Below, in pieces: positions 2,025-18,105 of a DNA stretch of 20,459 nucleotides. The notes beneath the pieces were generated by a model. It was not told the DNA's origin. It did not search any database and saw only the letters and a program-made list of their open reading frames with translations. A program made the position numbers and the translations under genes. This DNA comes from Polaromonas sp. YR568 (GTDB taxonomy: Bacteria > Pseudomonadota > Gammaproteobacteria > Burkholderiales > Burkholderiaceae), in the NCBI GenBank assembly GCA_945871335.1, contig CAMBWM010000008.1, forward strand, positions 1-20,459, written 5' to 3'. How positions within the stretch are numbered: the stretch's first letter is position 1; the number at the start of each line of letters is the position of its first letter.

Positions 2025-2459
2025 TCAGTTGGCGCCGTGAAAAAACTTCAGGAGCTTTAAGGCTTCGTCGTTGGATTGCTGAAATGTCGCCGGATTGAAG
2101 GTGCTGTCACCAAGGCGCGCATGCCCTGGCAGCCCAGCCAGCGTTGCATCATCAATGTTTTTGAACCCCATGGCCCATTCGCTGAACATACGTTTTTCAA
2201 TGGTTCCTTCATTCAGCTTGAGTACAGTGTGGTGGCGTTTATCAATTTTGATCTTGTCGTACAACGCGTGTACCTCCTCCTTATCACCTTCCAACATCTG
2301 GATGAAATGGCCACTTTTGCCTTCACTAGAGTAGCGATAAATCAACAAGCCTGTCAGCGCCTTTGAGGTATTCCATGCCCGGCTTTTTTGCAGCAGCTGC
2401 TCAAGCTCGGAGACGTCCATGGGCCTCTTGGCTTGACTAACATAAATCGTGTAATACAT
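2025..2459 (-). CDS. BLUF-domain blue-light photoreceptor protein
   Basis: The 144-residue protein is one BLUF domain (about residues 1-100) plus a short helical tail, so it is a short stand-alone BLUF protein without an output domain. BLUF domains bind FAD non-covalently and respond to blue light through a Tyr-Gln-flavin hydrogen-bond switch. The key residues are present: Tyr6 in YTIYVSQA, Asn30 before LTGLLIY, Gln54 in FIQMLEG, the KIDKRHH stretch, and Trp95/Met97 in EWAMGF. I place the start at the ATG at 2459, because AGGA stands seven bases upstream (AGGATAAAAATG) and the protein then begins MYYTIYVS, as in relatives. An upstream in-frame start at 2498 would add 13 residues that do not fit the family. 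Short BLUF proteins act by binding partner regulators; none can be identified here. Confidence 0.93.
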   Translation of the reverse strand: MYYTIYVSQAKRPMDVSELEQLLQKSRAWNTSKALTGLLIYRYSSEGKSGHFIQMLEGDKEEVHALYDKIKIDKRHHTVLKLNEGTIEKRMFSEWAMGFKNIDDATLAGLPGHARLGDSTFNPATFQQSNDEALKLLKFFHGAN

Positions 2460-2500
2460 TTTTATCCTAAGGTTTGACATACTTAAAGCCATCAACAACT

Positions 2501-2519
2501 TGCCAATAATTTATTGGCA
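2501..2519. promoter_or_regulatory. Perfect 9-bp dyad, candidate operator of the BLUF gene
   Basis: TGCCAATAA and TTATTGGCA flank a single central T, forming a 19-base palindrome centred at 2510. It lies about 40 bases upstream of the chosen BLUF start codon, a typical position for an operator overlapping a promoter. On the minus strand it ends in TTGGCA, which could double as a -35 element, but no good -10 hexamer follows at 17 bases. It could also be transcribed as a small hairpin, but no T-tract follows. Binding by a dimeric regulator is an inference. Confidence 0.5.
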
Positions 2520-2771
2520 TCGCGGCTTAATATGGATGAAAGTTTATCCGAATATTCAATTTTTAATGCCCACACAAATGGAAGCTACTCATGGCTTTGA
2601 CACGTTGCGGGTGCATGCCACCCACACATCGATCACCGACACCGTCATCAAACAAACCGAATCGCGCTGCACCCCCGATTCAAGGTGTTGTTGGCGCCGA
2701 CCCGAAGAGCCTGATCGACGCCCAAAAGCTGTCATCGAATTGGTTTATAAAACACGCTAAAGTTTACACAA
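2520..2771. other. Intergenic stretch with no gene recognised
   Basis: With the dyad and the BLUF leader this makes a gap of about 312 bases between the BLUF and oxidoreductase genes. Short + strand frames exist (86 and 81 codons), but neither has a ribosome site or any recognised domain, and their composition looks non-coding. A faint string GFDTLRVHA around 2590-2620 recalls the N-terminus of O-acetylhomoserine sulfhydrylases but is not followed by anything matching. It could be a decayed gene. Confidence 0.35.
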
Positions 2772-3785
2772 CTAAGCATTGGGGTCGGCAAGCACCTCCG
2801 TCAGTTGCACACGCCTACCTTCACGCGCTGAAATGATCCCTGCGCGAATCACACCCAGCGAACGGGTGGCATAGTCACCTCCTGTTTCAGGCGATCCTTG
2901 ACCTCGCACGGCCGCCGCGAACTCATCGAGTTCGTCGACGAAGGTGTCGTTTTTGATGAAGGGCACCTGTTCAAACTTGTCTGATCCCCGCTTGATGAAG
3001 CGCAAGCCGCCATGCAGATCGTAATAAGCGTTGGCTTCCTTGCCATAAATATTCATCACATAATTTTCAGTGGCCGATGCGTAACTCGCGTTGACGGTCG
3101 AGAGCGCCCCGCTTTCATGCTGCAGCAACAATGAAGCCACATCGGGGTTGTCACCTGGCAGCACCAGTTGCGCCGCTTGTCCACTGACCGCCGTGATCGG
3201 GCCCATCAGGTACTCTAGGACATCGACATAGTGCACACCAATTTGAAGCATCACGCCGCCGGGCATGCCCTCGGCTTGGTAACGCCACGATGTGAGATCA
3301 ATCTTTCCTAAGCGATCACGGCTGATGTTCGCCTCTGCATTGACCAGTTTGCCAAAAACCCCGTCATCGATCTGCTTCTTGATCCAGCGGAACTGGCTTT
3401 CTCTACGGCGCTGATAGCCCAGTGCCAGCACGACACCGGCCTTGCGACAAGCTTCGGTAATCGCACGTCCCTCCACTAAGGTATTGGCAATCGGCTTGTC
3501 AAGAAAAACATGCTTGCCTGCTTCAGCGGCTTGTCGCGTGGTTTCCAAATGCACATTGTTCGGCGTGGTGTTGATGATGGCGTCGATGGAAGGGTCAGCC
3601 AAGATGTCCTCGTAACTGCTCGCGGTCGCGCAGCCATACTTCGCGGCAAAGGCTACGCGCTTTTCTTCCGAGCGCGTATAGCAGGTGCGAATGACAAACT
3701 TGTCCGAACGATTCATGGCATCGGCCAGAACATCGGACCACCAGCCCATGCCGAGGCAGGCAACGTTGATAGGTGCAAATGACAT
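2772..3785 (-). CDS. Gfo/Idh/MocA-family NAD(P)-dependent oxidoreductase
   Basis: The 337-residue protein has the two-domain layout of the family: an N-terminal Rossmann fold (about 5-120) and a C-terminal alpha/beta domain (about 130-330). The nucleotide loop is CLGMGWWSDV (10-19). The family's (E/D)KP motif appears as LDKPIA (95-100), with Lys97 the usual catalytic lysine. A GVHYVDVLEYLMG segment (183-195) carries the conserved His/Asp pair of the substrate site. Such enzymes oxidise or reduce a hydroxyl of sugars, inositols or related compounds; the substrate here cannot be told. GGAGA stands eight bases upstream of the ATG, supporting this start. It follows pntB by 100 bases on the same strand. 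An inositol-dehydrogenase-like role would fit the IolD-like gene at 10931, but the two are about 7 kb apart and no link is shown. Confidence 0.9.
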   Translation of the reverse strand: MSFAPINVACLGMGWWSDVLADAMNRSDKFVIRTCYTRSEEKRVAFAAKYGCATASSYEDILADPSIDAIINTTPNNVHLETTRQAAEAGKHVFLDKPIANTLVEGRAITEACRKAGVVLALGYQRRRESQFRWIKKQIDDGVFGKLVNAEANISRDRLGKIDLTSWRYQAEGMPGGVMLQIGVHYVDVLEYLMGPITAVSGQAAQLVLPGDNPDVASLLLQHESGALSTVNASYASATENYVMNIYGKEANAYYDLHGGLRFIKRGSDKFEQVPFIKNDTFVDELDEFAAAVRGQGSPETGGDYATRSLGVIRAGIISAREGRRVQLTEVLADPNA

Positions 3786-3885
3786 CAGTTTTTCTCCAGT
3801 TGAGTAAGTGAATTTCGGATTCAGTAAAAATCGAGGTGTTTATCGTCTAAATACATGGTTGGGCAAGCTCTGCTGGAAGGTCGCT

Positions 3886-5304
3886 TCACCCCCGCAGCGC
3901 AGTCAAAACTTCATCGAGCATCTTTTTGGCATCGCCAAACAGCATGCGGTTGTTGTCTTTGTAAAACAGCGGGTTGTCCACACCCGCATAGCCGCTGGCC
4001 ATGGAACGCTTCATCACGATGCTGGTGCGGGCCTTCCAGACCTCGAGTACCGGCATGCCAGCGATGGGGCTGGTTGGGTCGTCTTGGGCGGCAGGGTTCA
4101 CGATGTCGTTGGCGCCAATAACGATGGCCACGTCGGTGTCCGGGAAATCATCGTTGAGTTCGTCCATCTCAAAAACGATGTCATAAGGCACCTTGGCCTC
4201 GGCCAACAGCACGTTCATGTGGCCGGGCATGCGGCCCGCCACCGGGTGGATGCCAAAGCGCACGTTCACGCCTTTTTCGCGCAGGTGCTTGGTGATTTCA
4301 AACACCGTGTGCTGTGCCTGCGCAACCGCCATGCCGTATCCGGGCACGACGATCACATTCTTGGCGTCGCGCAACAGCTCGGCAGTCTCGGCAGCCAGGA
4401 TGGGGCTGACTTCACCGACAGGCTCGGCCGGGCCACCCGCGGGCTTGGGCGCGGCAGCAGTGGTGCCAAAGCCCCCCGCTATCACGCTGATGAAGCTGCG
4501 GTTCATGGCGTTGCACATAATGTAAGAAAGAATAGCGCCGCTGGAGCCCACCAGCGCACCGACCACAATCAGCAAATCGTTACTCAGCATGAAGCCGGTG
4601 GCTGCTGCGGCCCAACCCGAATAGCTGTTGAGCATGGACACCACCACTGGCATGTCGGCGCCGCCAATGGCCATTACCATGTGGATGCCGAACAGCAAGG
4701 CGATGGCCGTCATGATGAACAAGGGCACCATGCCGTCTTGCAGCGTTTCGGCCAGCATGAATTCACGACCAAAGTAAATTACCGCAATCAAACCCGCCAA
4801 GTTGAGCCAGTGACGAGCCGGCAGCAACAAGGGGCTACCGCCCATATGGCCAGACAACTTGCCGAATGCGGCAATCGAGCCCGAGAAGGTCACCGCACCA
4901 ATGAAGATGCCGAGGTAGATTTCACCCGCGTGGATGGCGTGCGCCGCGCCTTCCAAATTCTTGGACGCCTCCGGGTCTGCATAGGTGGCGTAACCCACCA
5001 ACACCGCGGCCAAGCCGACCATGCTGTGCATCAGCGCCACGAGTTCGGGCATTTGCGTCATCTGCACCGAGCGAGCGGCGTACAGGCCAACGCCTCCGCC
5101 AATCGCCATCGCACCGATGATCCATGGGATGCCAGCGGCCGTGACTTGGGGCCCCAACACCGTGGCCAGTACGGCCAGGGCCATGCCCAACATACCGTAG
5201 AGATTGCCTCGGCGAGCGGTTTCCTGGTTGGACAAACCGCCCAAGCTGAGGATGAAAAGAATGGTCGCGCCAATGTAGGCGACCGTGGCAAGACTTGCTG
5301 ACAT
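3886..5304 (-). CDS. pntB: NAD(P) transhydrogenase subunit beta
   Basis: The 472-residue protein is the beta subunit of the proton-translocating transhydrogenase, which makes NADPH from NADH using the proton gradient. Residues 1-280 form the membrane part with about eight or nine helices. His93 in [10 protein letters not shown] matches the conserved proton-channel histidine. The NADP(H)-binding domain III follows a short linker. Its motifs are [10 protein letters not shown] (322-331), [18 protein letters not shown] (353-370), [11 protein letters not shown] (396-406) and [16 protein letters not shown] (432-447). The length is close to that of the E. coli protein. The start is 17 bases after the pntA stop, with GAAGGAGA between, so the two genes form one operon. 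Identification is secure. Confidence 0.97.
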
Positions 5305-5321
5305 TCGGAGTCTCCTTCGTC

Positions 5322-6938
5322 TTATTTGCGGAACATCGCCAGCATGCGCTGGGTGACGGCAAATCCGCCAAACATGTTGATGGCGGTCAGCACCAAAGCC
5401 ACCGACGCCAAGATGATGATCAGCGTATTGGGACGATCAGCGGCCGTGGCGATGGGCGAGATTTGCACCAAAGCGCCGATAGCGATGATCGAGCTGATGG
5501 CGTTGGTCACGCTCATGAGCGGCGTGTGTAGCGCAGGCTTGACGTTCCACACCACCATATAGCCCACAAAGCAGGCCAACACAAACACCGTGAAGTGCGA
5601 CAAGAAATCGGCCGGGGCATAGGCGCCGACCACCGCAAACAGCGCTGCCGTGATGGCAGCTACGGTGAGCAACTTGCCCGCTGGCATCGGGCCCGAGGCC
5701 TCGCCATGGCCGTGGCTTTTTTTGGCGCTAAGCGCCGAGGCGGGTTTGGGCGCAGGCTTGGGCGCCACCACCAAAGCAGGCGCTGGCCAGGTTATCTCAC
5801 CGTTCTTCACCACCGTAAGGCCACGGATGGCGTCGTCTTCCATATTGACGTTGATCACGCCGTCTTTGGTCTTGCACAGCTCTTCGGCCAAGCGAAAAAG
5901 GTTGGTGCCGTAAAGAGTGGACGACTGGCGCGCCATACGCGAGACCAGGTCGGTGTAACCGACGATGGTCACGCCGTACTTGACCACGGCCTTGCCGGCT
6001 TCGGTCAATTCGCAGTTGCCACCTTGCTCTGCCGCCATATCCACAATGACGCTGCCGGGCTTCATGCTTTTTACCATCTCGGCGGTGATCAGCTTGGGCG
6101 CAGGTTTGCCGGGAATAAGAGCGGTGGTGATGATGATGTCGACATCACGGGCCTGCTGCGCGTACATTTCACGCTGTGCGACCTGAAAGCTCTCGCTCAT
6201 GACTTTGGCGTAACCACCGCCGCCTGAGCCCTCTTCTTCATAGTCCACTTTGACGAACTCACCGCCGAGTGACACGACTTGGTCTGCCACTTCGGCGCGG
6301 GTGTCGTTTGCGCGCACGATGGCGCCGAGGCTGGCGGCCGCACCAATCGCGGCCAAACCGGCCACACCAGCACCAGCGATGAAGACCTTGGCGGGAGGCA
6401 CTTTGCCCGCGGCCGTGATCTGGCCGTTGAAGAATCGGCCAAAAGCGTTGGCCGCCTCGACCACGGCGCGGTAACCACTCACGCCCGCCATGGAGGTCAG
6501 TGCGTCCATTTTCTGGGCGCGGCTGAGCGTGCGGGGCAAAGCGTCGATGGAAAGCGCCGTGACCTTCTTGGCTGCGAGCTGCTGCATCAAATCGGAGTTT
6601 TGGGCGGGCCACAAAAAGCCAATCAGAGTTTGGCCTTCGCGCATCAAGCCTACTTCGTCTGCGGTGGGGGCACGCACCTTGAAGACGATGTCGCTACCGC
6701 TCCACAGCGCCGCGGCGTTGGGCGCAATGGTTGCGCCGGCCACAACATAAGCTGCGTCGGACAGGTCGGCGAAATCGCCCGCGCCTTGTTCCACCACCAC
6801 GGTAAAACCAAGTTTGATCAGTTTGGTCACCGCATCGGGGACCGTGGCTACACGTTTTTCACCAGGGAAAATTTCTTTTGGTACGCCAATGCACTGAGAC
6901 GTGGCAGCTGTGGTGTTACTGGATTCAACAAGAATCAT
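5322..6938 (-). CDS. pntA: NAD(P) transhydrogenase subunit alpha (single-chain form)
   Basis: Domain I (about residues 15-390) binds NAD(H). It resembles alanine dehydrogenase, opens with [18 protein letters not shown], and carries the dinucleotide loop [18 protein letters not shown] (189-206). A low-complexity linker rich in Pro, Ala, Lys and His ([20 protein letters not shown]) leads into the C-terminal membrane part with about four helices. That part holds the conserved stretch [20 protein letters not shown]. Domain I and the membrane segment are fused as in E. coli; many other bacteria split them into two genes. I place the start at the ATG at 6938, because AGGA lies eight bases upstream. 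A TTG at 6953 would add five residues but would place that ribosome site inside the gene. The protein is then 538 residues. It pairs with PntB. Confidence 0.96.
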
Positions 6939-7080
6939 GGGATACGTCCTCAATACGGGGTTCTACAATTGAATTTAAGGGGAATAAGGCTACGAATAGT
7001 GAACATGAATTTGTTCGGATTGCAGATACGGCTTTGAATTTCCTGCTTCAAAAAACATTGCGGCCGCTGCAGTTAAAAAC

Positions 7081-7554
7081 TCATAAATGGGATTGATAAA
7101 GCGGCCAATCCCCGATGTAGTGCTTCAGCAGCTTGTTCTCATTTTCTTGCTCGACGAACACGCTGCGAGCCACATCATGAAATGATAGAACACCGATCAG
7201 ACTCTGCTTCTCCAGCACCGGGATGTAGCGCTGGTGATGGTTGATCATGAGCCCTCGAAGGTCGTCCAACTCCACATCGGGCGTGGAGCAAATCGGCGTC
7301 GTATTCATGACCTCTCGCACCTTGAGCTCAGCCACAGGCGGTGTTGGTCCAGAACGCAGTTCCTTCTGTCGCTGCGCCAACACGAGAATTACTTCACGAA
7401 ATGTCAGCAAGCCAACCACGGTGTTGTCGTCACTCACGACCAGTGACCCCACGTCTTCATCGGCCATGGTGATGACGCATTGTGAAAGCAAGGTGTCGGA
7501 AGTGACCGTCAATGGACTCCGTTCATTTGATTTAAGAATATCGAGCACTTTCAT
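7081..7554 (-). CDS. Two-CBS-domain protein
   Basis: The 157-residue soluble protein is a tandem CBS pair (Bateman module) and little else. CBS1 spans about residues 8-62 (ADEDVGSLVVSDDNTVVGLL, then TFREVI). CBS2 spans about 78-133 (VREVMNTTPICSTPDVELDD, then QRYIPVLEKQSLIGVLSFHDV). Such modules bind adenine nucleotides or S-adenosyl compounds and report cell energy state. There is no attached enzyme or DNA-binding domain. GGAG lies six bases upstream of the ATG. It lies between the dehydratase gene (89 bases upstream) and pntA (142 bases downstream), all on the same strand. Adjacency to pntAB makes an energy-sensing role at the transhydrogenase conceivable, but that is inference. Confidence 0.9.
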   Translation of the reverse strand: MKVLDILKSNERSPLTVTSDTLLSQCVITMADEDVGSLVVSDDNTVVGLLTFREVILVLAQRQKELRSGPTPPVAELKVREVMNTTPICSTPDVELDDLRGLMINHHQRYIPVLEKQSLIGVLSFHDVARSVFVEQENENKLLKHYIGDWPLYQSHL

Positions 7555-7643
7555 TTTTATCTCCTGTTGTGACGATTAGTCAGCATCGTTGATGAGTATT
7601 CAGGCGCATGGCCTGCAAATATTGCCCTGCTGGGGATAATTGT

Positions 7644-9359
7644 TCAGAGGGGTGGCTCTGTTGCCTGCAGGAAATCAAAATCGCACCCTGCATCCGCCTG
7701 CATCACATGGTCTTGGTAAAGTTTGGCGTAGCCGCGCTGCGCCAGTGCTGGCCGAGCTGGCAAATCGGCACGCCGACGTGCTAGTTCAGCTTCATCGACC
7801 AAAAGGTCGACGCGGCGCTCCTTCACAGACAAGCGGATACGGTCGCCGGTACGCACCAGCGCCAACGGACCACCAACTGAGGCCTCAGGAGTCACGTGCA
7901 AAACGATCGTTCCAAACGCCGTGCCACTCATCCGCGCATCGGAGATGCGCACCATGTCCTTGACACCGGCCATTGCCAGCTTCTTTGGAATCGGCAGGTA
8001 GCCTGCCTCAGGCATGCCGCTACCGCTAGTCGGACCGGCGTTTTGCAGAACCATGATGTCGTCTGCCTGGATGTCAAGATCCGGATCGTCAACACGCTCA
8101 GATAGCTCTTGCAGAGAGCTGAAAACAACAGCGCGTGCCTCCTTCTCAAATAAGGTCTTATCAGCCGCTGACCGTTTGAGGATCGCGCCACCTGGCGCAA
8201 GCGAGCCGAAAAGTGCCACCAACCCGCCCACCGGTTCGATAGGCTCCGAGAACTTACGCACCACGCGGTGGTCGGCCCAGGCACCTTCCTCCGCGGCAAG
8301 ACGATCGCCCAAAGTTTCCCCGGTGACCGAAATTGTGTCCAAGTGCAGCAGTGGCTTCAACTCGCGCAGCAACGCGCTCATGCCGCCGGCGGCATAAAAG
8401 TCTTCCATGTAGTTGTCGCCGGTCGGCTTTAAGTCGACTAGCACCGGCGTGGTGTCACTCAGTTCGTTCAAATCATGGAGCGATACGGGGATGCCCAGTC
8501 GCCCAGCCACTGCCGTCAAGTGAATGATCGCGTTGGTACTGCCGCCTAGCGCAAGTAAGACGCGTAGCGCGTTTTGAACCGACTTCGGCGTAATGATTTG
8601 GCTCGGCCGAATTGGGTTGTGGATCAACCGCACAGCTTGCGCGCCGCTGGCCTCGGCCGCGCGCAGCCGATCTGCGTGAACCGCTGGGATCGCAGCCGTG
8701 CCAGGCAGCGACATGCCAAGAGCCTCTGCGATGCAGGCCATGGTGCTTGCGGTGCCCATCACCGCGCACGTTCCTGCTGTCGTGGCCAACCGACCCTCGA
8801 CGATATCAATCGTCTTGCGCTCTATTTTGCCAGCACGAAAGCTGCCCCAGAATCGCCGACAGTCGGTGCAGGCACCCAAGCGTTCGCCCTCATGCCGGCC
8901 GGTCATCATCGGCCCGGTGACAAGCTGGATAGCCGGCACATCAGCGGCTGCAGCGCCCATCAGTTGCGCCGGTACGGTCTTGTCGCAACCACCGATCATC
9001 ACCACCGCGTCCATGGGCTGTGCACGGACCATTTCTTCAACGTCCATACTCATTAGGTTGCGGAACATCAGGCTGGTCGGGTTGAGGAAAACCTCGCCAA
9101 GGGAGATGGTTGGGAACTCGATCGGCAGACCGCCGGCAGCGAGTACGCCGCGCTTGACCGCATCAACCAGCTCGGGCATAGAGCGGTGGCAGTTGTTGAA
9201 GCCTGACCCGCTGGAGGCTATGCCAACCACAGGGCGTTCAAGCAGTTCCGTCGAATACCCCATCGACTTAATGAAGCTGCGCCGCAAATAAAGTGCAAAG
9301 GCCCGGTCGCCGTAATTGGTGAGGCCGCGCCCAATGCCGTGCTCTGGAATATCTGCCAT
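7644..9359 (-). CDS. IlvD/Edd-family Fe-S dehydratase (sugar-acid dehydratase type)
   Basis: The 571-residue enzyme belongs to the dihydroxy-acid/6-phosphogluconate dehydratase family and most resembles the sugar-acid (L-arabinonate/D-xylonate type) branch. Three cysteines are spaced as in [2Fe-2S] pentonate dehydratases: Cys57 (NNCHRS), Cys125 (GGCDKTVPAQLMGA) and Cys198 (AGTCAVMGTASTMA). The C-terminal domain has NAGPTSGSGMPEAG and the active-site serine loop ISDARMSGTAFG. The family removes water from 2,3-dihydroxy acids to give 2-keto-3-deoxy acids. I chose the ATG at 9359, preceded by AGGAG at five bases. A longer frame reaching 9596 overlaps the upstream gene and lacks a ribosome site. 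It is the last enzyme gene of the catabolic set. It may act on the acid produced by the neighbouring enzymes, or dehydrate a cyclic polyol-ketone in place of IolE; the latter is speculation. Confidence 0.9.
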   Translation of the reverse strand: MADIPEHGIGRGLTNYGDRAFALYLRRSFIKSMGYSTELLERPVVGIASSGSGFNNCHRSMPELVDAVKRGVLAAGGLPIEFPTISLGEVFLNPTSLMFRNLMSMDVEEMVRAQPMDAVVMIGGCDKTVPAQLMGAAAADVPAIQLVTGPMMTGRHEGERLGACTDCRRFWGSFRAGKIERKTIDIVEGRLATTAGTCAVMGTASTMACIAEALGMSLPGTAAIPAVHADRLRAAEASGAQAVRLIHNPIRPSQIITPKSVQNALRVLLALGGSTNAIIHLTAVAGRLGIPVSLHDLNELSDTTPVLVDLKPTGDNYMEDFYAAGGMSALLRELKPLLHLDTISVTGETLGDRLAAEEGAWADHRVVRKFSEPIEPVGGLVALFGSLAPGGAILKRSAADKTLFEKEARAVVFSSLQELSERVDDPDLDIQADDIMVLQNAGPTSGSGMPEAGYLPIPKKLAMAGVKDMVRISDARMSGTAFGTIVLHVTPEASVGGPLALVRTGDRIRLSVKERRVDLLVDEAELARRRADLPARPALAQRGYAKLYQDHVMQADAGCDFDFLQATEPPL

Positions 9360-9435
9360 GAAAACTCCTGGGGAATACCGTTTGAACAACCGCGCATCAA
9401 ACAGTCGATGAAACGGGGGGTAATTTGGGAAAACG

Positions 9436-10905
9436 TTAAATATCCGACAACCGGGTTTTGATGTATTTGGCTTCCAAATAATCGCGGATACCCAGCGAGC
9501 CCCCCTCACGTCCCATGCCGCTGTCTTTGGTGCCACCAAAAGGCATTTCTGCGCTGGCAATCGCCAGTTCATTGACGCCCACCATGCCGGCCTCAATCGC
9601 CTCGCTTGCCAAGGTGGCCGTTTTCAGCGAACGTGTGAACAAATAGGAAGCCAAACCATACGGCGTGGCGTTGGCCAGTGCGATGGCTTCGTCAAAGCTG
9701 GCGAAAGATGCAATGGGAGCCACGGGTGCAAAGGGCTCGTCTTGCATGATGCGTGCGCTTTGCGGCACATCGGCCAATACCGTCGGGGCCAAATAGTAGC
9801 CCTTAGTGCCCAATCCTTGCGGCCGTTCCCCGCCGACGACCAAACGTGCACCGCTGTCCAGCGCATTGGCAATAAGCGACTGGGCGTGCACCAGACCTCG
9901 CCGGTTGGCCATGGGTCCAACCTCTGTCTCGGCCAACAAGCCTGGCCCTACCTTCAAAGACCGCGCAACCACGGCAAAGCGTTCAACAAAACGACCATAC
10001 CCGCTTTCATGCACAAAAAAGCGCGATGGCGAGGCACAGACTTGACCGCAATTGCGGTATTTAAAGCGCGCACATTGCTCGGCTGCTGCCTCGACGTCGG
10101 CGTCCTCGAAAACCAACACTGGGGCATGGCCGCCGAGTTCCATAGACACCCGCTTGATTCCCTCTGCAGCCAGATGAAGCATCTTGCGACCGACAGCGGA
10201 AGAGCCCGTTAAAGTGATCTTGGCCACCTTCGGAGAGCCAACCAAGACCTCTGAGATGAAGCCTGAATCGCCCGTGACCAGGTTCACCGCGCCTGGCGGC
10301 ATTCCTGCATCATGCAGCGCCTGCACTAAGGCCATGCAACAACCCGCAGCTTCGCTGGCGGGCTTGACTACCACGGTACAACCTGCGCCCAAAGCCGCCG
10401 CGATTTTTCTTGCGGGCAACAAAGCTGGGAAGTTCCAAGCAGAAAAAGCGGCCACCACGCCAACAGGTTCAAAGCGAACCTGCATGCGCACTTCAGGCAC
10501 ACGCGCTTGAAAGGTCTGCCCATAAATGCGCTGAGTTTCACCGGCATACCAGTCAAATTGGTCGGCTGCGTCGTTCAGTTCGCCCCGAGCCTGCGCCAAG
10601 GGCTTACCCGTTTCCATAGACATCATGCGCGCCATGTCGTCTGCCCGTTCACGCACTAGGGCAGCGGTTCGGTGCAGCAAGTTGGAGCGCTCCCAAGGTG
10701 ATGTGTGACGCCAAGTGCCAAAGGCGTTGTGGGCGGCATCCACAGCCGCGTCCAAGTCGGCGCGGGCGGCCACAGGAATGCGGCCAATGACCTCTTCGTT
10801 GGTCGGGTCGATGACCTCGCGCACCTCGCCACCCGAGGCGCTGCTCCATTGGCCATTGATGAACAAACCATATGCACTGTACAAACCAAAATCTTCACGT
10901 TTCAT
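9436..10905 (-). CDS. NAD(P)-dependent aldehyde dehydrogenase (succinate/ketoglutarate-semialdehyde type)
   Basis: The 489-residue protein is a complete aldehyde dehydrogenase. It starts near LFINGQW (14-20). The oxyanion asparagine is Asn158 in SAWNFP and the cofactor lysine is Lys181. The nucleotide loop is TLTGSSAVG (231-239). The general base is Glu256 in MELGGH and the nucleophile is Cys290 in NCGQVC. The C-terminal signature (EMPFGGTKDSGMGREGG) is that of the GabD/semialdehyde branch, so an omega-semialdehyde acid is the likeliest substrate. The ATG at 10905 has GAGGGAG at the right distance; a longer frame from 11067 runs into the upstream gene. It is 25 bases from the IolD-like gene upstream and 76 from the dehydratase downstream. 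In this setting it would oxidise the aldehyde released by the thiamine enzyme or the dehydratase branch. Confidence 0.93.
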   Translation of the reverse strand: MKREDFGLYSAYGLFINGQWSSASGGEVREVIDPTNEEVIGRIPVAARADLDAAVDAAHNAFGTWRHTSPWERSNLLHRTAALVRERADDMARMMSMETGKPLAQARGELNDAADQFDWYAGETQRIYGQTFQARVPEVRMQVRFEPVGVVAAFSAWNFPALLPARKIAAALGAGCTVVVKPASEAAGCCMALVQALHDAGMPPGAVNLVTGDSGFISEVLVGSPKVAKITLTGSSAVGRKMLHLAAEGIKRVSMELGGHAPVLVFEDADVEAAAEQCARFKYRNCGQVCASPSRFFVHESGYGRFVERFAVVARSLKVGPGLLAETEVGPMANRRGLVHAQSLIANALDSGARLVVGGERPQGLGTKGYYLAPTVLADVPQSARIMQDEPFAPVAPIASFASFDEAIALANATPYGLASYLFTRSLKTATLASEAIEAGMVGVNELAIASAEMPFGGTKDSGMGREGGSLGIRDYLEAKYIKTRLSDI

Positions 10906-10930
10906 TAAGAGCTCCCTCAAATTCAAAGGT

Positions 10931-12844
10931 TCAAACCAGCGTGGCAAGGTAGCGAGACTGCACGTCGTCACACCAATTGCCAACGTTCCATGAGCCATAG
11001 GCACCCAATCCGCCTTCAGGGCGCTCGCCGGCATAAACCGGTACATGCACCAGCGCAAGGCCGTCATGAGCGTGGGCGCGCATCAGTGCGTCTCGCAGAC
11101 TATCTGCGTCTTCGCCGCCCCACAGGGCAAGTACACCCTTCACGCTGGAGGCCATCTTGACGTAATCCACTGCCACTCCATCGTTGGTTCGGAAATCGTG
11201 GCCGTATTGTGCGTGCTGCAAGCTAGATATCGCCGCCATGCGCCGGTTATCAAAGACCACGATGGTGCCTCGCGCGCCGTGCTCTACGGCGCTGATCAGC
11301 GCCTGTGGGTTCATCATGAAAGAACCGTCTCCAGTGAAGGCCATCGGATACCGCTTTGTGTCCGCCATTCCCGCAGCCGTTACCGCGCAGGTGGCAAAAC
11401 CCATGTAAGAAGCACCCGTCTCGGTGTAGGTCTGATATGGCGCGTCGTCCTCAACGGTCTGGAAGCCGTTGGCCTGCACGTCGCCAGCATCGAAAAGCTT
11501 GATAGCGTCGACCTCTTTGGCAAAGTCGCATACAACCTTGATCGCTGCGGGCTGCGTCAGTACAGGGCGCTGCCAGACCTCATCAAATATCGGCGGCATG
11601 GCCTGGCGTTCGCTAAGGAAGCCCTTCCACGCGATCTTGCTCGCGGCGCAGCCATCCAACCACAAGGTGCGTGCCTGCGTCTGTTCGTCCGGTGTCAAAT
11701 CAAGAGCCGACAACAACTGTGATACCACCGCACCGATGTCGCCCTGCAGCGCAATAGTCCGGTTGTAATGAGATACGTCTGAGAGATCGGCATTAATGTT
11801 GATCACCTCTTCAACCAACGGATAGCCAACACCCGAGCAGTCGCTCTGACACACTGCGCGCGTACCAACTGCCAAAAGTAGCGTAGCATTCGCCATGGCA
11901 TGGTTACCACTGATCGAACCTTTGCTGCCTCCGACGTGCATGTATTGAGGGTGTGCGTCTGGCAAGATACCCGTCGAACCAGGCGAAACTACCACTGCGG
12001 CGCCGCAACGTTCTGCCAGTTCGCGTAGTGGCCCTGCGAAGGGGCGGCCGCCTCCGCCAACCTTGATAACAATACGAGCGTGGCGGCGCAATGCCTTTGC
12101 CGCCTGCTTTAGTGTGCCTATATCGGCGACGGCTGTAAGTGGGACTTGCAGCGCCTCTGGCAGCGCTTCTAAGTGCAAGTCGTGTATCACCTGCGGCTGA
12201 GTGTTGATGGGCAACAGCAAGTAGAACGGTCCTGGCTTAGCTGGGTGGTGCACGCACTGTGTGCCTCGGCGCAACGCGTCACGCAGAGCTTCAGGTGTGT
12301 GCAGCACATAGGATTGCCCCATCAGCGCCGTTATTTGGCCATACAAATGCTGCTGCTGTTTTGGGATCTGCTGCATGTTGTAGCCTTCGCCCCAGGTCGT
12401 CTCGTCACCATAAATGTGATACAGACCGACACCATTGCAAGCTGCAGCAAGCGATCCAGCCATTGCCTGCAGAGCGCCAGGCCCGATGGACGTTACCACC
12501 GCGCATGGTTCCCCCCAAGCCCAGGCCAGCGCGGTTCCAGCGTGTGCCATTTCGACTTCGTTGCGAAAGTTGTAGACCTGTGTCACGCCGGCTTTGGTGT
12601 AAATGCGAAGCACCTCAGCGAGGTCTGTCGAACCATGGCCGAAAATCGCCAAGTACTTACTGATGCCTTGCTTTAGCAGGCCCAGTACCAGCGCTTCGGA
12701 CAACGTTACGGTCAGTTGCCTTGGCAGGGCTCCGGCGTCCAGGGCTTGCTGCAGACCACCGCTGCGTGCAATGGCCTGGGCCCGAGCTTCCTCACCCTGT
12801 GTACCCAGCAACATCTCAGTTGTTAATTTGGTACTGTGGTTCAT
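10931..12844 (-). CDS. IolD-like thiamine diphosphate-dependent C-C hydrolase
   Basis: The 637-residue protein is a three-domain TPP enzyme. The N-terminal domain has IFGHGSTDLAEVL (67-79), the cofactor-activating Glu96 in RNEVEMAHAG, and TSIGPGALQAMAG (118-130). The C-terminal domain has the TPP/Mg motif starting GDGSFMMNPQ (505) and ending VFDNRRMAAISSLQ. The DN-x(5)-LQ ending, rather than NN, and the IFGHG box are typical of IolD, which opens the ring of 3D-trihydroxycyclohexane-1,2-dione in inositol breakdown; the length also matches. The related cyclohexane-1,2-dione hydrolase performs the same kind of ring opening. None of the other usual iol genes (iolB, iolC, iolE) is here, so a different cyclic or alpha-diketone substrate is likely. 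The ribosome site before the ATG is weak (AAAGAAAA). It is preceded by a 186-base gap, so it may have its own promoter. Confidence 0.85.
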   Translation of the reverse strand: MNHSTKLTTEMLLGTQGEEARAQAIARSGGLQQALDAGALPRQLTVTLSEALVLGLLKQGISKYLAIFGHGSTDLAEVLRIYTKAGVTQVYNFRNEVEMAHAGTALAWAWGEPCAVVTSIGPGALQAMAGSLAAACNGVGLYHIYGDETTWGEGYNMQQIPKQQQHLYGQITALMGQSYVLHTPEALRDALRRGTQCVHHPAKPGPFYLLLPINTQPQVIHDLHLEALPEALQVPLTAVADIGTLKQAAKALRRHARIVIKVGGGGRPFAGPLRELAERCGAAVVVSPGSTGILPDAHPQYMHVGGSKGSISGNHAMANATLLLAVGTRAVCQSDCSGVGYPLVEEVININADLSDVSHYNRTIALQGDIGAVVSQLLSALDLTPDEQTQARTLWLDGCAASKIAWKGFLSERQAMPPIFDEVWQRPVLTQPAAIKVVCDFAKEVDAIKLFDAGDVQANGFQTVEDDAPYQTYTETGASYMGFATCAVTAAGMADTKRYPMAFTGDGSFMMNPQALISAVEHGARGTIVVFDNRRMAAISSLQHAQYGHDFRTNDGVAVDYVKMASSVKGVLALWGGEDADSLRDALMRAHAHDGLALVHVPVYAGERPEGGLGAYGSWNVGNWCDDVQSRYLATLV

Positions 12845-12913
12845 TGCTGTTTTTCTTTCATTGCAGATTAAGGCGGACTCGAGCTATCAAGCGCGACAGC
12901 ACAAAATAATCCT

Positions 12914-12928
12914 TGGCAGCGATTGCCA
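12914..12928. promoter_or_regulatory. Inverted repeat TGGCA-N5-TGCCA upstream of the IolD-like gene
   Basis: Five-base arms flank GCGAT, giving a 15-base dyad about 70 bases upstream of the IolD-like start codon, in the only sizeable gap inside the catabolic gene set. A second inverted repeat in the same gap pairs TGCCTTTG (12960-12967) with CAAAGGCA (13014-13021). No clear promoter hexamers or T-tract accompany them. They could be an operator or an RNA-processing hairpin. Support is weak. Confidence 0.25.
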
Positions 12929-13030
12929 TGCATTCGCTACCTGATGCGTAATAGTTGTCTGCCTTTGACGTTGAGCATGTGACACAAGCCTTTAAGTTAG
13001 TTGGCTGTGCGAACAAAGGCAGAGGGCTGG

Positions 13031-14068
13031 TTAGTTCATGGTTTCCACAAGCGGTACAAGCCCGGGCTGACTATGGGCAGCAGAACGCAATGCAACCAGC
13101 GCTTCCATAACTCGCTCAGGGGTCGCTGGAAGACGGTTCATACGAACGCCTACGGCATCGTAAATAGCATTGATGATCGCTGCCGCAGTTGGCGTGATCG
13201 CCGGCTCACCGATTCCCTTGACGCCCAACGGCGTCTTCGGGTCAGGTTCAGTTAACAACACGGATGTAACGTGCGGTATATCCAATGCAGTAGGGAGGAT
13301 GTACTTTGCAAAACCGGGCGTGGTGGTGTTGCCGTTAACTTGAACGTACTCCTCCATCAATGCATGGCCCACGCCCATGACTACTGAGCCCTCAATCTGA
13401 CCTTCAACCTGTTGTGGATTAATCACTCTGCCAACATCGTGTGCGGCCCAAACGCCAAGTACCTGAACCTCGCCGGTATCGTCATCGACCTCGACCTCGG
13501 CCACCTGTGCACCAAAAACGTAGCTTTGCCAAGGCGTAGCCTCACCCGTTTCTGGATGCAATGCAGTATGGGCTGAAGTGAAAAGGCCGCTACCGACAAT
13601 GACGATTCCACGCTCTTTCTTCAACACGTGAACAGCATGCTCCATGCTAATTCGCTTGCTGGCGGAACCCTCTACCCACACTTGGCCGGAGAAAGCACGA
13701 ACACTTTCAGCGCTGACACCCCAGTACGCACCCATCGCCGCACGAAAGCGGCCAAAGGCCTCGCGGCAGCCAACCGCTACAGCGTTTCCAATCATGTAGG
13801 TCATACGAGTCGCGCCGGCATGTGCTGCCTCGGGCACGCGTGCGGTGTCGTTGTCTCCCAATACGATGTCCTCAGGACGTACACCCATTTCCTGTGCCGC
13901 AATTTGGCATAGTCCCGTGAGTACACCCTCGCCAATCTCGGTCACGCCCGTGGCTATTTTTACTGTGCCGCCGTCGTCGAGTTCGACCCATACAGCTGCC
14001 CGGTCCATCGCTGCAGTGCGTGCAATACCGTACCAACCGCAAGCCACACCTCTTCCTCTGTGTTTCAT
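13031..14068 (-). CDS. Molybdenum hydroxylase, C-terminal Mo-binding domain as a separate protein
   Basis: The 345-residue protein equals only the second half of the large subunit of xanthine dehydrogenase/aldehyde oxidase enzymes. It starts at the usual domain boundary (KHRGRGVACGWYGIART). It contains the GVTEIGEGVLTG loop (41-52), the DVGRVINPQQVEGQIEGSVV helix (211-230), and GVKGIGEPA with the catalytic glutamate Glu288 (282-290). In the EIGEG loop a glutamate stands where most relatives have the molybdenum-site glutamine (GQG). It cannot work alone, because the first Mo domain and the iron-sulfur clusters are on the preceding gene. The ATG follows that gene's TGA by nine bases, in the same frame, with AGGA (overlapping the stop) six bases upstream. 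I read it as a genuine restart, but a recent nonsense mutation in one long gene cannot be excluded. Confidence 0.88.
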   Translation of the reverse strand: MKHRGRGVACGWYGIARTAAMDRAAVWVELDDGGTVKIATGVTEIGEGVLTGLCQIAAQEMGVRPEDIVLGDNDTARVPEAAHAGATRMTYMIGNAVAVGCREAFGRFRAAMGAYWGVSAESVRAFSGQVWVEGSASKRISMEHAVHVLKKERGIVIVGSGLFTSAHTALHPETGEATPWQSYVFGAQVAEVEVDDDTGEVQVLGVWAAHDVGRVINPQQVEGQIEGSVVMGVGHALMEEYVQVNGNTTTPGFAKYILPTALDIPHVTSVLLTEPDPKTPLGVKGIGEPAITPTAAAIINAIYDAVGVRMNRLPATPERVMEALVALRSAAHSQPGLVPLVETMN

Positions 14069-14077
14069 ATCATGTCC

Positions 14078-16039
14078 TCAATTGCTGATGATGTTTACCG
14101 AGCACAAGTCTGACTTTGGCTTGGTTCTAGGCACGAGCGGTTGTGTTTGGCCACCAATCAGATAAGACTGACGAGACCCTTCGTAATTAAAGTCGCTGCG
14201 CTGAGCAATACCCTGACCCTGGCGATAGGGCACGCCAGGCTCCCAGCCCGCAGCCTTGATCGCCGCTTCAAGACATTCAACTGCGAGCACACGATCCAAT
14301 TTCTGGCGCGTGTGAGTCGTTGCGCCATCTAGCATCAGATTGATTCGACGCAGAGCCACAGGGTCCATGCCGAGTTTCTGTGCACAAAGATCAAGATGGC
14401 ACTCGGTGGCAAACTCTGACTGAAAAGCGCCGAAGGCCCGGAATGCACCACTCGGGGTGTTGTTGGTGTACACGCCAATCGAATCAACCCAAACATTGGC
14501 AATGTCGTAGGGGCCGGGGCCTAGGATCGCCGACTTGTTCATGACGCCGGGAGTTGAAAGTGCGTAGGCTCCACCATCAGCGACCATGACCATCTTCGTA
14601 GCGACAATTCGGCCGTCGCGCTTTAGACCCATGGTGTACCTAATATTGAACGGGTGCCGCTTGGCACTGACTTTGATGCTTTCCTCCCGGGTAAACACAT
14701 ACCGTACCGGACGCCTTGTTTTGATAGCAGCCAACGCCAACATGCCTTGGTAAATCATGTCCTCCTTTCCACCAAAGCCGCCACCCACCGTACTCATGAT
14801 CATGCGCACTTTGTTGATGGGTCTGCCCAGAATGCGCGCCAGCATATGGCGATGGTGGGTGATGTTTTGGCTGGGCGACTGCACCGTCACGCAACCATCG
14901 GCTTCCAAATAGGCAAGACCGGCCTCAGGCTCAAGATAGGCGTGCTCGATCGACTGGGTATCGTAAGTCTGTTCGACGATCAGATCGGCCTGCGCCAACG
15001 CCTCGTCGACGTCACCCTTACGGATGCGCGTGTGCTTACAGATGTTGTTCGAAGCAAACGAGTGCAACTGAATAGCGCCGTCTTGCATTGCAACATGCGG
15101 GTCGAATAAATTGGGAAGTTCTTCGTATTCAACGTGGATCGCAGCCACGGCAGCACGCGCAATGTCCAGCGTCTCAGCCGCAACCGCCACTACCGCCTCG
15201 CCAACGTAGCGCACGACGCCGCGGGCCAGTGTCGGTTGGTCCTCAATAAAGACACCAAAGTTGTCAACGCCAGGAACATCGTCGCAGGTCAATATGCACT
15301 CGACGCCCGGAATCACACGTGCGGCTTCGGCGTCGATGCGTACGATGCGTGCATGGGGATGCGGACTACGAACAACCTGCATGTGCAGCATGTTGGGCAT
15401 GAACATATCAGCGGCATACTTGATCGCACCGGTGACCTTGGCCGGTGCGTCCAGGCGCCGTGTGCGCTGGCCGATGAAGCTGTGCGCCTCTGCGTCCTCC
15501 TCTAGCGCGCTGGCCGGAACCGCACCGCTTTGTATGTCGCGTGCCATTTCAACCGCATCAAGGATTTTTTGGTAGCCAGTACAGCGGCAAATATTGCCAC
15601 CTAGGCCCTCTTTAATCTCGTCCCGGCTAGCTCCCGGGTTGCGGCGCAAGGTGGATGTTGCTGCCATCACCATGCCCGGAATGCAGTACCCGCACTGACT
15701 TGCGCCGCACTTATGGAAGGCCTGCTGCAGCAAAGACATGCCAGCGTCTCGATCCAGGTCGTCAATGGTCTCAACAGAGCATCCGTTGATCTTCTGGACC
15801 GGAGCGAGGCAGCTTTTGATCAGCTTGCCGTCGACAAACATGGAACACGTTCCGCATTCTCCTGCGCCACAACCTTCCTTGTTGCCCGTGAGCTTGAGTT
15901 CCTCGCGCACAAAGTCAATGACCCGGTAGTGGTTGGGGACTGTGCGCTGCACTTTGCGACCGTTGACGATCGCGGTGATCTCGGTGGTCGGGTGGCAGCC
16001 TTGCGCCAAAGTGCCCCCAGCTAGCAACAAATCAGACAT
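14078..16039 (-). CDS. Molybdenum hydroxylase, fused [2Fe-2S] and N-terminal Mo-binding domains
   Basis: The 653-residue protein joins two modules that are often separate. Residues about 20-170 are the iron-sulfur subunit: a plant-type ferredoxin cluster (Cys57, 62, 65, 77) and a second [2Fe-2S] cluster (Cys116, 119, 151, 153; CGASQCGYC and GGNICRCTGYQ). From about 187 (SFIGQRTRRLDAPAKVTG) runs the first Mo-binding half, with GGGFGGKED (419-427) and GAFRAFG (531-537). It ends at AAIKAAGW plus a tail of about 54 residues. The second Mo half is the next gene. Fused Fe-S/Mo chains are known (for example XdhD), but they continue to the end. The ATG at 16039 has GGAGAG five bases upstream and overlaps the FAD-subunit stop by eight bases; the longer frame from 16114 lies inside that gene. 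The substrate is unknown: aldehyde, N-heterocycle or purine are possible, and the neighbours favour an aldehyde or hydroxylated ring. Confidence 0.92.
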   Translation of the reverse strand: MSDLLLAGGTLAQGCHPTTEITAIVNGRKVQRTVPNHYRVIDFVREELKLTGNKEGCGAGECGTCSMFVDGKLIKSCLAPVQKINGCSVETIDDLDRDAGMSLLQQAFHKCGASQCGYCIPGMVMAATSTLRRNPGASRDEIKEGLGGNICRCTGYQKILDAVEMARDIQSGAVPASALEEDAEAHSFIGQRTRRLDAPAKVTGAIKYAADMFMPNMLHMQVVRSPHPHARIVRIDAEAARVIPGVECILTCDDVPGVDNFGVFIEDQPTLARGVVRYVGEAVVAVAAETLDIARAAVAAIHVEYEELPNLFDPHVAMQDGAIQLHSFASNNICKHTRIRKGDVDEALAQADLIVEQTYDTQSIEHAYLEPEAGLAYLEADGCVTVQSPSQNITHHRHMLARILGRPINKVRMIMSTVGGGFGGKEDMIYQGMLALAAIKTRRPVRYVFTREESIKVSAKRHPFNIRYTMGLKRDGRIVATKMVMVADGGAYALSTPGVMNKSAILGPGPYDIANVWVDSIGVYTNNTPSGAFRAFGAFQSEFATECHLDLCAQKLGMDPVALRRINLMLDGATTHTRQKLDRVLAVECLEAAIKAAGWEPGVPYRQGQGIAQRSDFNYEGSRQSYLIGGQTQPLVPRTKPKSDLCSVNIISN

Positions 16040-16940
16040 TCTGGCTCTCCTTAGATATACGGGGCAAGTCAAACCCGGCGTGTGCAATTGCGGTAGCGAG
16101 CGAACGTTCAACAAAATTGCTCAGCACTTCACGCCGGTAACTCTGACGGCTTCGCGAGCGGACTCGATCGGCCACGCGGACAGATGCATCACGCAGAGCT
16201 GCCGAGGTGGGTTTGATTCCTGTTAACAGGTCTTCAATATCGGTTAGACGTTCGGGCACAGGCCCCACCGCGCCAATAGCAATGCGCAGATCGTCAATGC
16301 GATTGCCTTCATCAAGGTGGACTAGTGTGGCAAGGCAAACTGTGGAGATGGCCAGCGAGCGGCGGTGCCCCACTTTCTCAAAAGCAACACCGTGGTTGGG
16401 TAATGCGTCGAACTCCAATCTCGATAAAATTTCTCCGGGCTGCAACATAGTGCGGCTTGGGCCGAGAATGAATTCGGACAACGGTACGGAGCGCTCAAGT
16501 AATCGGTCACCCTCCCGTCGAACCAAAGTAACGTGGGTGTTGAGTGCGAGCAGCGCCGGCTGGGTGTCACCAGCCGGAGATGCGTTCACAAGGTTGCCGC
16601 CAACCGTGGCTTGTTCACGAATTTGATCATCTGCGAACCAGAGCGCGCAAACACCAAGCACCGGTGCTTGTTCCATCAGCAGCGGATGACGATGCAGCGC
16701 CGAAATCGGCGTAGTCGCGCCAATACGAATGCGCGCTCCTGCCTGAGATATGCCGCCCAGCGAAGTAATGCGGCTGATGTCGACAACCGCTGGCAAGTGC
16801 ACGTCTCCAGCCCGGCCCTCCCGGGCCCAGGGCAGCAGATCGGTAGCACCTGCCAGTAAGCGCGCGGTTGGCATGCGCTCAAGCACGTCAAAGGTCTCTT
16901 CAAGAGATTTCGGCGTGAAGTAGTGGTCGAATGTCAGCAC
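16032..16940 (-). CDS. Molybdenum hydroxylase FAD-binding subunit
   Basis: The 302-residue protein is the medium subunit of the xanthine dehydrogenase/CO dehydrogenase family, which passes electrons from the iron-sulfur clusters to NAD or another acceptor through FAD. The pyrophosphate-binding loop LLAGATDLLP is at 28-37. The second FAD motif QATVGGNLVNASPAGDTQPA is at 110-129. The C-terminal part (about 190-290) matches the CO-dehydrogenase flavoprotein C domain. No 4Fe-4S insertion is seen, unlike in 4-hydroxybenzoyl-CoA reductase. The start is GTG at 16940, with AAGGAG nine bases upstream. It follows the alcohol dehydrogenase by 13 bases and overlaps the next gene by eight, so these genes form a tight operon. 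No XdhC-like maturation gene is present in the window. Confidence 0.94.
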   Translation of the reverse strand: MLTFDHYFTPKSLEETFDVLERMPTARLLAGATDLLPWAREGRAGDVHLPAVVDISRITSLGGISQAGARIRIGATTPISALHRHPLLMEQAPVLGVCALWFADDQIREQATVGGNLVNASPAGDTQPALLALNTHVTLVRREGDRLLERSVPLSEFILGPSRTMLQPGEILSRLEFDALPNHGVAFEKVGHRRSLAISTVCLATLVHLDEGNRIDDLRIAIGAVGPVPERLTDIEDLLTGIKPTSAALRDASVRVADRVRSRSRQSYRREVLSNFVERSLATAIAHAGFDLPRISKESQNV

Positions 16941-16953
16941 GGTCGAATTCTCC

Positions 16954-18105
16954 TTAGCAGCCTTCGGCGTGGCCGATTTTCACCACCACCTTGATCGCAT
17001 CGCCGATGCGCTCGCGCGCATGGCGCAAAGCCTCCGGCACTTCTTCCAACGGGAAAGTGTGGGTATGAATCAACTTGGCGTCGAAGCGTTTCTGCGCCAT
17101 CAAAGCTGCAGCGCGGTGAGTTGCGCTCTTGCCCTCTCCGCGAATGCCGAACAATGAGATGTTGTTACGCACCAGCGCGGCTACATCGACCGGCACTGGC
17201 TCGCCTGGGAATGCGGCCAAGCAGATGCGTCCACCGCGCCTCAACATGTTTGCGGCGTCATTGACTGCGTTCGGCGCGCCCGAGCACTCCAGTACATAAT
17301 GCGCGCCGCCATTGGTGTACTCGCGCACCTTAGCTACGGAGTCTTCCTTATTCACGTTGATGGTGAAGTCGGCACCGAGCTTGCGCCCCATCTCAAGACG
17401 GTTATCGCGTGTGCCTGTCAGAATCACCTCGCTGGCTCCCAGTGCCTTGGCCACGCCAACTCCCATCAAGCCGATGGGTCCAGGGCCCATGACCACCACC
17501 GACTGACCGGCAATCAGCCCACCGATGGAATCAAGCCCGTACATTGCGGTGCCAGCAGTGACGATCAGCGTCGCCTCTTCATCGCTCATATCCTCGGGGA
17601 CATGTGCCAAAGTGTTTATGTTGTTGACAGCATATTGAGTGAAGCCGCCGTCTGTCGTGAAGCCATTGGCCCGATGGCCTTTGTTGACATCACCGTAGTT
17701 TTTGCCGTAGTTCAGGCAAGAGGTGTACATACCTTCGCGGCAACGCTCGCAACGACCGCAACCGGCGTGCACTTCCACCGTGACGCGGTCGCCCACTTTG
17801 TACTCGTCAACGCCTTGGCCCAACTTGACCACAGTGCCCATGTACTCGTGGCCAGGGGTGAAATTTTTGTTGAAGGGCAAACCGCCATGAATCTGTGCAG
17901 GGGGTCCCTTATGGATGATTTCCAGGTCGGTCGCGCACACGGCGATGGCGTCGATGCGCACCAAAACTTCGGCAGCGCCTGGCACAGGCACGGGCTTGTC
18001 GACAAACGTGATTTGGTCAGGGTCGCCGAGCACCCAAGCCTTCATGGTCTCAGGTATTTTAAAGCTGCGCTGTCCCAAGAAGGCGGCGTCTGTGTTTGTA
18101 TTCAT
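16954..18105 (-). CDS. Zinc-dependent alcohol/polyol dehydrogenase (MDR family)
   Basis: The 383-residue protein is a medium-chain dehydrogenase. Catalytic zinc ligands are Cys57 (VCATDLE) and His86/Glu87 (GHEYMG). The structural zinc site has all four cysteines (Cys116, 119, 122, 130 in CGRCERCREGMYTSC). The Rossmann loop is GPGPIGLMGVGVAKALGA (207-224). It belongs with sorbitol, threonine and other secondary-alcohol dehydrogenases, and would oxidise a polyol or cyclic alcohol to a ketone with NAD(P)+. GGAGA stands just before the ATG. It is the first gene of the divergent minus-strand set, with the AraC-type regulator and transporter gene on the other side of the 521-base gap. It is therefore likely the first step of the pathway and under that regulator. 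Confidence 0.93.
   Translation of the reverse strand: MNTNTDAAFLGQRSFKIPETMKAWVLGDPDQITFVDKPVPVPGAAEVLVRIDAIAVCATDLEIIHKGPPAQIHGGLPFNKNFTPGHEYMGTVVKLGQGVDEYKVGDRVTVEVHAGCGRCERCREGMYTSCLNYGKNYGDVNKGHRANGFTTDGGFTQYAVNNINTLAHVPEDMSDEEATLIVTAGTAMYGLDSIGGLIAGQSVVVMGPGPIGLMGVGVAKALGASEVILTGTRDNRLEMGRKLGADFTINVNKEDSVAKVREYTNGGAHYVLECSGAPNAVNDAANMLRRGGRICLAAFPGEPVPVDVAALVRNNISLFGIRGEGKSATHRAAALMAQKRFDAKLIHTHTFPLEEVPEALRHARERIGDAIKVVVKIGHAEGC

Follow-up and report, generated by a model that had tools for sequence, protein, structure and literature searches.

The window, by which we mean the whole 20,459-nucleotide stretch of Polaromonas sp. YR568 DNA that was analysed, carries on its minus strand two adjacent genes with the domains of a molybdenum hydroxylase, and the TGA that ends the first lies in the reading frame of the second. 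The features, in minus-strand order, are:

16954..18105, minus strand: zinc-dependent dehydrogenase, which opens the conserved gene set (Pfam, NCBIfam and neighbourhood comparison)
16032..16940, minus strand: FAD subunit (FAD_binding_5, CO_deh_flav_C), its end overlapping the start of the FeS-MoI gene
14078..16039, minus strand: ORF1, the FeS, a/b hammerhead and Mo domain I gene (FeS-MoI), about 653 aa (Pfam and homology)
14081..14191, minus strand: C-terminal tail of the ORF1 protein, within a low-pLDDT stretch of the structure model
14078..14080, minus strand: TGA stop of ORF1 (read from the sequence)
14075..14079, minus strand: GAGGA, likely ribosome-binding site overlapping the ORF1 stop, 6 nt before the ATG
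13031..14068, minus strand: ORF2, the NdhM-like Mo domain II gene (MoII), 345 aa (Pfam, relatives and alignment with 3hrd_B)
10931..12844, minus strand: TPP-dependent enzyme, conserved downstream gene (Pfam, NCBIfam and neighbourhood comparison)
9436..10902, minus strand: aldehyde dehydrogenase (start placed at 10902 here; ORF caller, 11067)
7644..9365, minus strand: IlvD/Edd-family dehydratase (start placed at 9365 here; ORF caller, 9596)

The start of ORF1 was set at ATG 16039 by homology to the relative P0001 (653 aa); the longer start given by the ORF caller is TTG 16114. The junction DNA on the minus strand reads TGAGGACATGATATGAAACACAGAGGA. The original prediction described an in-frame TGA followed by a restart codon, and the DNA confirmed this: ATG 14068 lies 12 nt from the T of the TGA (9 nt after the stop), so that ORF1 and ORF2 share a frame, which stays open to 13031. 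The stop also forms part of a likely ribosome site, as had been claimed, with GAGGA overlapping the TGA and separated from the ATG by the 6 nt spacer CATGAT. On the same strand, 14065-14073 reads ATG ATA TGA out of frame, a minimal reading frame that overlaps the true start codon of ORF2. In a single-chain structure model across the ORF1/ORF2 junction, residues 614-653 had pLDDT values below 50.

Domain content and key residues

By Pfam, ORF1 contains Fer2, Fer2_2, Ald_Xan_dh_C and MoCoBD_1, while ORF2 is MoCoBD_2 alone, placing the break between the two Mo domains as originally described. The ORF2 match begins at profile position 23, and because the matches in the fused relatives P0070 and L002 begin at similar positions (16 and 22, respectively), ORF2 misses hardly any of the domain. 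The xanthine oxidase superfamily set of Fer2, Fer2_2, hammerhead, MoCoBD_1, MoCoBD_2 and FAD_binding_5 was thus found in one operon with all matches at or above the Pfam cut-offs, Fer2 barely so (21.1 vs 21). Against TIGR03311, ORF1 scored 505.5 and ORF2 117.9 bits vs a cut-off of 830.45, the halves being scored apart and the split lowering the score.

ORF2 retains the GIGEP motif, in line with the earlier statement that key motifs are kept, and its E288 was invariant in 17/17 rows of the ORF2 alignment (A2). In Mo domain I, residues R531, A532, F533 and G534 of the AFR-FG loop were invariant in 19/19 rows of the ORF1 alignment (A1). The GIGEP glutamate is an active-site residue of Mo hydroxylases, and the AFR-FG loop is a feature of their Mo domain I. 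This loop is named in PMC8305194. A further difference lies at ORF2 residues 46-48, which read GEG vs GQG in 3hrd_B and 1rm6_A, with E47 invariant in 17/17 A2 rows. The GQG glutamine with which E47 aligns is, we assume, a cofactor contact in xanthine oxidase.

Split and fused relatives

Among the best 120 of 7575 ORF1 relatives, 119 were 613-671 aa long and contained Fer2_2, hammerhead and MoCoBD_1 without MoCoBD_2, and one, P0070 (981 aa), was a fused chain; the homologue search that had been proposed for the same break recovered it in nearly every case. The best 120 of 4732 ORF2 relatives were stand-alone MoCoBD_2 proteins of 252-353 aa, in a search that admitted only about 190-604 aa, a range in which fused chains could not appear. 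A scan of genome contigs gave at least 80 loci.

A sequencing or assembly error within one long gene is hardly credible as the origin of the TGA, given that P0001-P0010, from several sources, were all 650-661 aa long without domain II, that the C-terminal residues of P0001 were identical to those of the window's ORF1, and that the counterparts of ORF1 and ORF2 on a complete Phaeobacter piscinae plasmid are annotated as separate adjacent CDS in an operon of this kind. The single chain also occurs, since there are fused homologues as close as L002, a MAG locus 86% identical to the window and read in its genome as an uninterrupted frame of 1058 aa. Fused relatives have no ATG at the seam (VKHRGRG in L002, GKVRGRG in L024 and TRHRGRG in P0070), and therefore they are not simple stop-codon errors. 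Relative to six relatives, dN was 0.06-0.16 for ORF1 and 0.06-0.13 for ORF2, with dS at least 1.5 or saturated, and purifying selection acts on both halves.

Two genome samples were scored with the joined window query (ORF1+ORF2) at E 1e-120 or better. In the class sample of Aurantimonas (G007), 4/385 genomes matched, the centre genome included; three of these fell in the window's clade and were all split, and the fourth (G206) was distant (41%) and split with the FeS part on its own. In the order sample of Rhodoferax (G001), 1/399 matched, the centre genome itself. Both counts are lower bounds because only the two best first-look candidates were scored per genome. Among viral contigs, 81 stretches matched a pattern and none was confirmed.

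Sequence of the split junctions

We compared 36 split junctions, those of 35 loci plus the window, in which one gene joins FeS to Mo domain I and another encodes Mo domain II. The stops were TGA in 27, TAA in 5 and TAG in 4. Positions scored for the second ATG ranged from -11 to +96 nt, with overlap of the two genes in 22 of the 36 (10 at -4, 10 at -1 and 2 at -11); the scoring favoured the ATG nearest the match, making starts and gaps approximate and true starts possibly further upstream, with frames unaffected. Only 3/36 junctions were in frame (the window, L011 and L018), or 2/34 (L011 and the window) without the frameshifted L018 and the duplicate L092, whose tree row matches that of L020 exactly. 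With so few in frame, the in-frame TGA of the window is a local accident, no more than chance. A loose regular expression, applied without a shuffled control, found a purine-rich motif before ORF2 at 32 of the 36 junctions; this expression did not find the ribosome-binding motif at L015, L025, L027 and L028.

These junctions bear directly on another proposal of the original prediction, TGA readthrough, and on the related possibility that decoding as selenocysteine yields a full-length chain. The frame of the window is indeed open after the TGA, but readthrough could not join the halves in the relatives, because 9/36 junctions have TAA or TAG and 33/36 are out of frame, and we regard this explanation as very improbable. 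What the junctions share is a gene boundary at the same place in Alpha- and Betaproteobacterial relatives, which supports the earlier suggestion of a true two-gene fission.

Two other loci deserve mention. At L018:350-3200, a frameshift disrupts the end of the FeS-MoI gene ahead of the seam; an assembly error or gene decay is the probable cause. L039:4813-7760 holds a second Mo-hydroxylase copy in which an in-frame TGA separates the FeS domain from Mo domain I and an ATG lies close behind, the same kind of in-frame gene boundary as in the window but at the other seam.

History of the split

A tree was built from 70 rows (69 different) and 740 columns covering the Mo domains only, with no outgroup and with the forks at the clade base left open. 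Dropped beforehand were two frameshifted rows (L018, and L112 in its Mo domain I), L033 at a contig end, L060 for want of a domain II match, a further 28 from L042-L080, and the repeat retrievals L081-L090 and L094-L096. Long branches (L093, L097, L067 and L109) make the deep placements unsure.

The clade containing the window, in which FeS is joined to Mo domain I, had 100/100 support and comprised 40 rows, 35 split and 5 fused. Within it, the window, L001 and the fused L002 formed a group at 100/99, and the fused P0070 paired with the split L034 at 100/97. Over the whole tree the split/fused state required 9 changes, at least 8 of these changes being forced by starred branches. The AU test rejected the grouping of all 35 split rows in the FeS-fused clade on a single side of one branch (log-likelihood 473 lower, p 3.9e-7); this hypothesis was framed after the tree had been inspected. 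Since L002 and P0070 each nest among split rows, they would most simply be read as re-fusions, although repeated fission may fit the change counts as well.

The clostridial relatives of NdhM (among them L098, L100, L101 and L104) also change between split and fused among close kin. Among 391 genomes from the class to which Clostridium tetanomorphum belongs, an NdhM query matched 17 loci in 16 genomes, 9 split, 7 fused and 1 unclear. Ten of these loci, with L067 and others, formed a 12-row group of 9 split and 3 fused rows in which the state switches, with the split L098 beside the fused L100 at 100/99. L097, which is 99% identical to 3hrd_B, lay outside both this group and the window's 100/100 clade, on a long, poorly placed branch.

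The tree also speaks to the idea, raised originally, of a recent nonsense mutation that split a single-chain gene at this locus, with the second half rescued by reinitiation. The frame unchanged across the TGA and a fused relative at 86% identity (L002) are what one would expect of such an event, but L001, the window's nearest neighbour in the tree, is itself split by a different junction (a 4 nt overlap, out of frame), the clade as a whole is split in 35/40 rows, the best ORF1 relatives all but uniformly lack domain II, and the same boundary recurs in relatives with other stops, frames and overlaps. We consider a recent nonsense mutation very unlikely.

Based on these data, we concluded with high confidence that the TGA is a normal gene boundary, and that the window encodes a three-chain molybdenum hydroxylase whose Mo domain halves are separate proteins made from one operon. 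The chains would be the FAD subunit, a protein with two [2Fe-2S] domains, hammerhead and Mo domain I, and Mo domain II. Translation of ORF2 is probably coupled to that of ORF1 at the overlapping stop and ribosome-binding site, and by homology the two proteins would associate around the Mo cofactor in the manner of NdhL and NdhM, so that one enzyme would be formed by both chains. The split appears to be old in the Proteobacterial clade and, on the simplest reading, fusion at this seam has undone it on more than one occasion. What looked like an in-frame nonsense codon is thus a conserved gene boundary, and the window and L001 vs L002 offer closely related split and fused enzymes, a natural comparison for what changes when the Mo domains are joined.

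The operon and a possible pathway

The conserved gene order is zinc-dependent dehydrogenase, FAD subunit, FeS-MoI, MoII, TPP-dependent enzyme, aldehyde dehydrogenase and IlvD/Edd dehydratase. All seven occurred in this order at 24 of 38 loci (L001-L038), in a range that takes in Burkholderiales, Rhodobacterales and HIMB114; many of the remaining 14 were cut by contig ends. At L016, L022 and L032 the TPP gene was accompanied by a Gfo/Idh gene, with no match for the aldehyde dehydrogenase or IlvD/Edd, and in the neighbourhood comparison no IlvD was found at L005 and no aldehyde dehydrogenase at L015. In Lachnospiraceae (L031 and L037) the TPP gene lies upstream, alongside the zinc-dependent dehydrogenase, the FAD subunit and a fused Mo chain. 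Close to the Mo enzyme, the window's longer cluster (2025-18105) also includes genes labelled here as PntAB, BLUF, CBS-domain and Gfo/Idh. The neighbours on the Phaeobacter plasmid include PntAB, BLUF, a tripartite tricarboxylate transporter and an XdhC-family gene.

From this gene context, the Mo enzyme appears to be one step of a conserved catabolic operon, which offers a way into an unassigned pathway of catabolism. The dehydratase passes the subfamily model PRK06131, and none of the best 25 NCBIfam models listed for either the TPP or the zinc enzyme reached its cut-off. Our best guess, drawn from family names and held with low confidence, is that the Mo enzyme might oxidise an aldehyde formed on ring opening of a cyclic diketone by the TPP enzyme, after which dehydration by the IlvD/Edd enzyme and oxidation by a semialdehyde dehydrogenase could follow. 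A transporter of the tripartite tricarboxylate type would suit an acid substrate at least as well as a cyclitol.

Comparison with known systems

The best solved-structure matches were 3hrd_A for ORF1 and 3hrd_B for ORF2, from the nicotinate dehydrogenase NdhFSLM of Eubacterium barkeri, which hydroxylates nicotinate at a Mo-Se site. Like the window, NdhFSLM has a separate FAD chain, and its cut between Mo domains I and II falls at the homologous residue, with Met1 of NdhM (3hrd_B) aligning with Met1 of ORF2. Because NdhM starts at the same residue, the MoI/MoII cut was already known, and the original description of a cut in an unusual place holds only in part: the cut itself has a precedent, but FeS is a separate chain (NdhS) in NdhFSLM and is fused to Mo domain I in the window. 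NdhL/NdhM, with L097 as proxy, also fell outside the window's clade, the place of L097 itself being unsure. No 6-hydroxynicotinate reductase was among the features listed around the Phaeobacter relative in a partial gene table. In the review PMC10331938, NdhL and NdhM are two molybdenum-binding proteins of a four-gene cluster, and a figure legend in PMC8305194 includes both among the catalytic-pocket residues.

FeS and Mo domains lie on one chain, where the window has two, in selenium-dependent xanthine dehydrogenases of the TIGR03311 type and in the aldehyde oxidoreductase of Desulfovibrio (1dgj and 1sij), and single-chain FeS-Mo fusions are known as EF2570 and xdhA5 (PMC11448449). The Lachnospiraceae loci L031 and L037 share the window's clade and the neighbouring zinc-dependent dehydrogenase, FAD and TPP genes, but have a fused FeS-MoI-MoII chain. 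Sphingomonas ndrB1B2B3B4, of which three genes are annotated as xanthine dehydrogenase subunits in PMC5239795, might be another split case.

An FeS-MoI-only layout was absent from the matched PDB chains (41 + 57 distinct sequences listed), as judged by length and matched range; 3hrd was absent among the 50 rows shown of one further listing. The literature searched, which took in few subscription papers, gave no description of an FeS-MoI, MoII and FAD layout. We give roughly even chances to a broader reading, in which this layout, absent from the structures and papers searched, marks an uncharacterised hydroxylase clade serving a conserved catabolic operon in SAR11-type bacteria, Rhodobacterales, Rhizobiales and Burkholderiales (and fused in Lachnospiraceae), with the MoI/MoII seam a hot spot of repeated splitting and re-fusion in separate branches of the superfamily. 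The cut alone is not new; what differs is its combination with the fusion of FeS to Mo domain I, giving an enzyme laid out as FeS-MoI, MoII and FAD.
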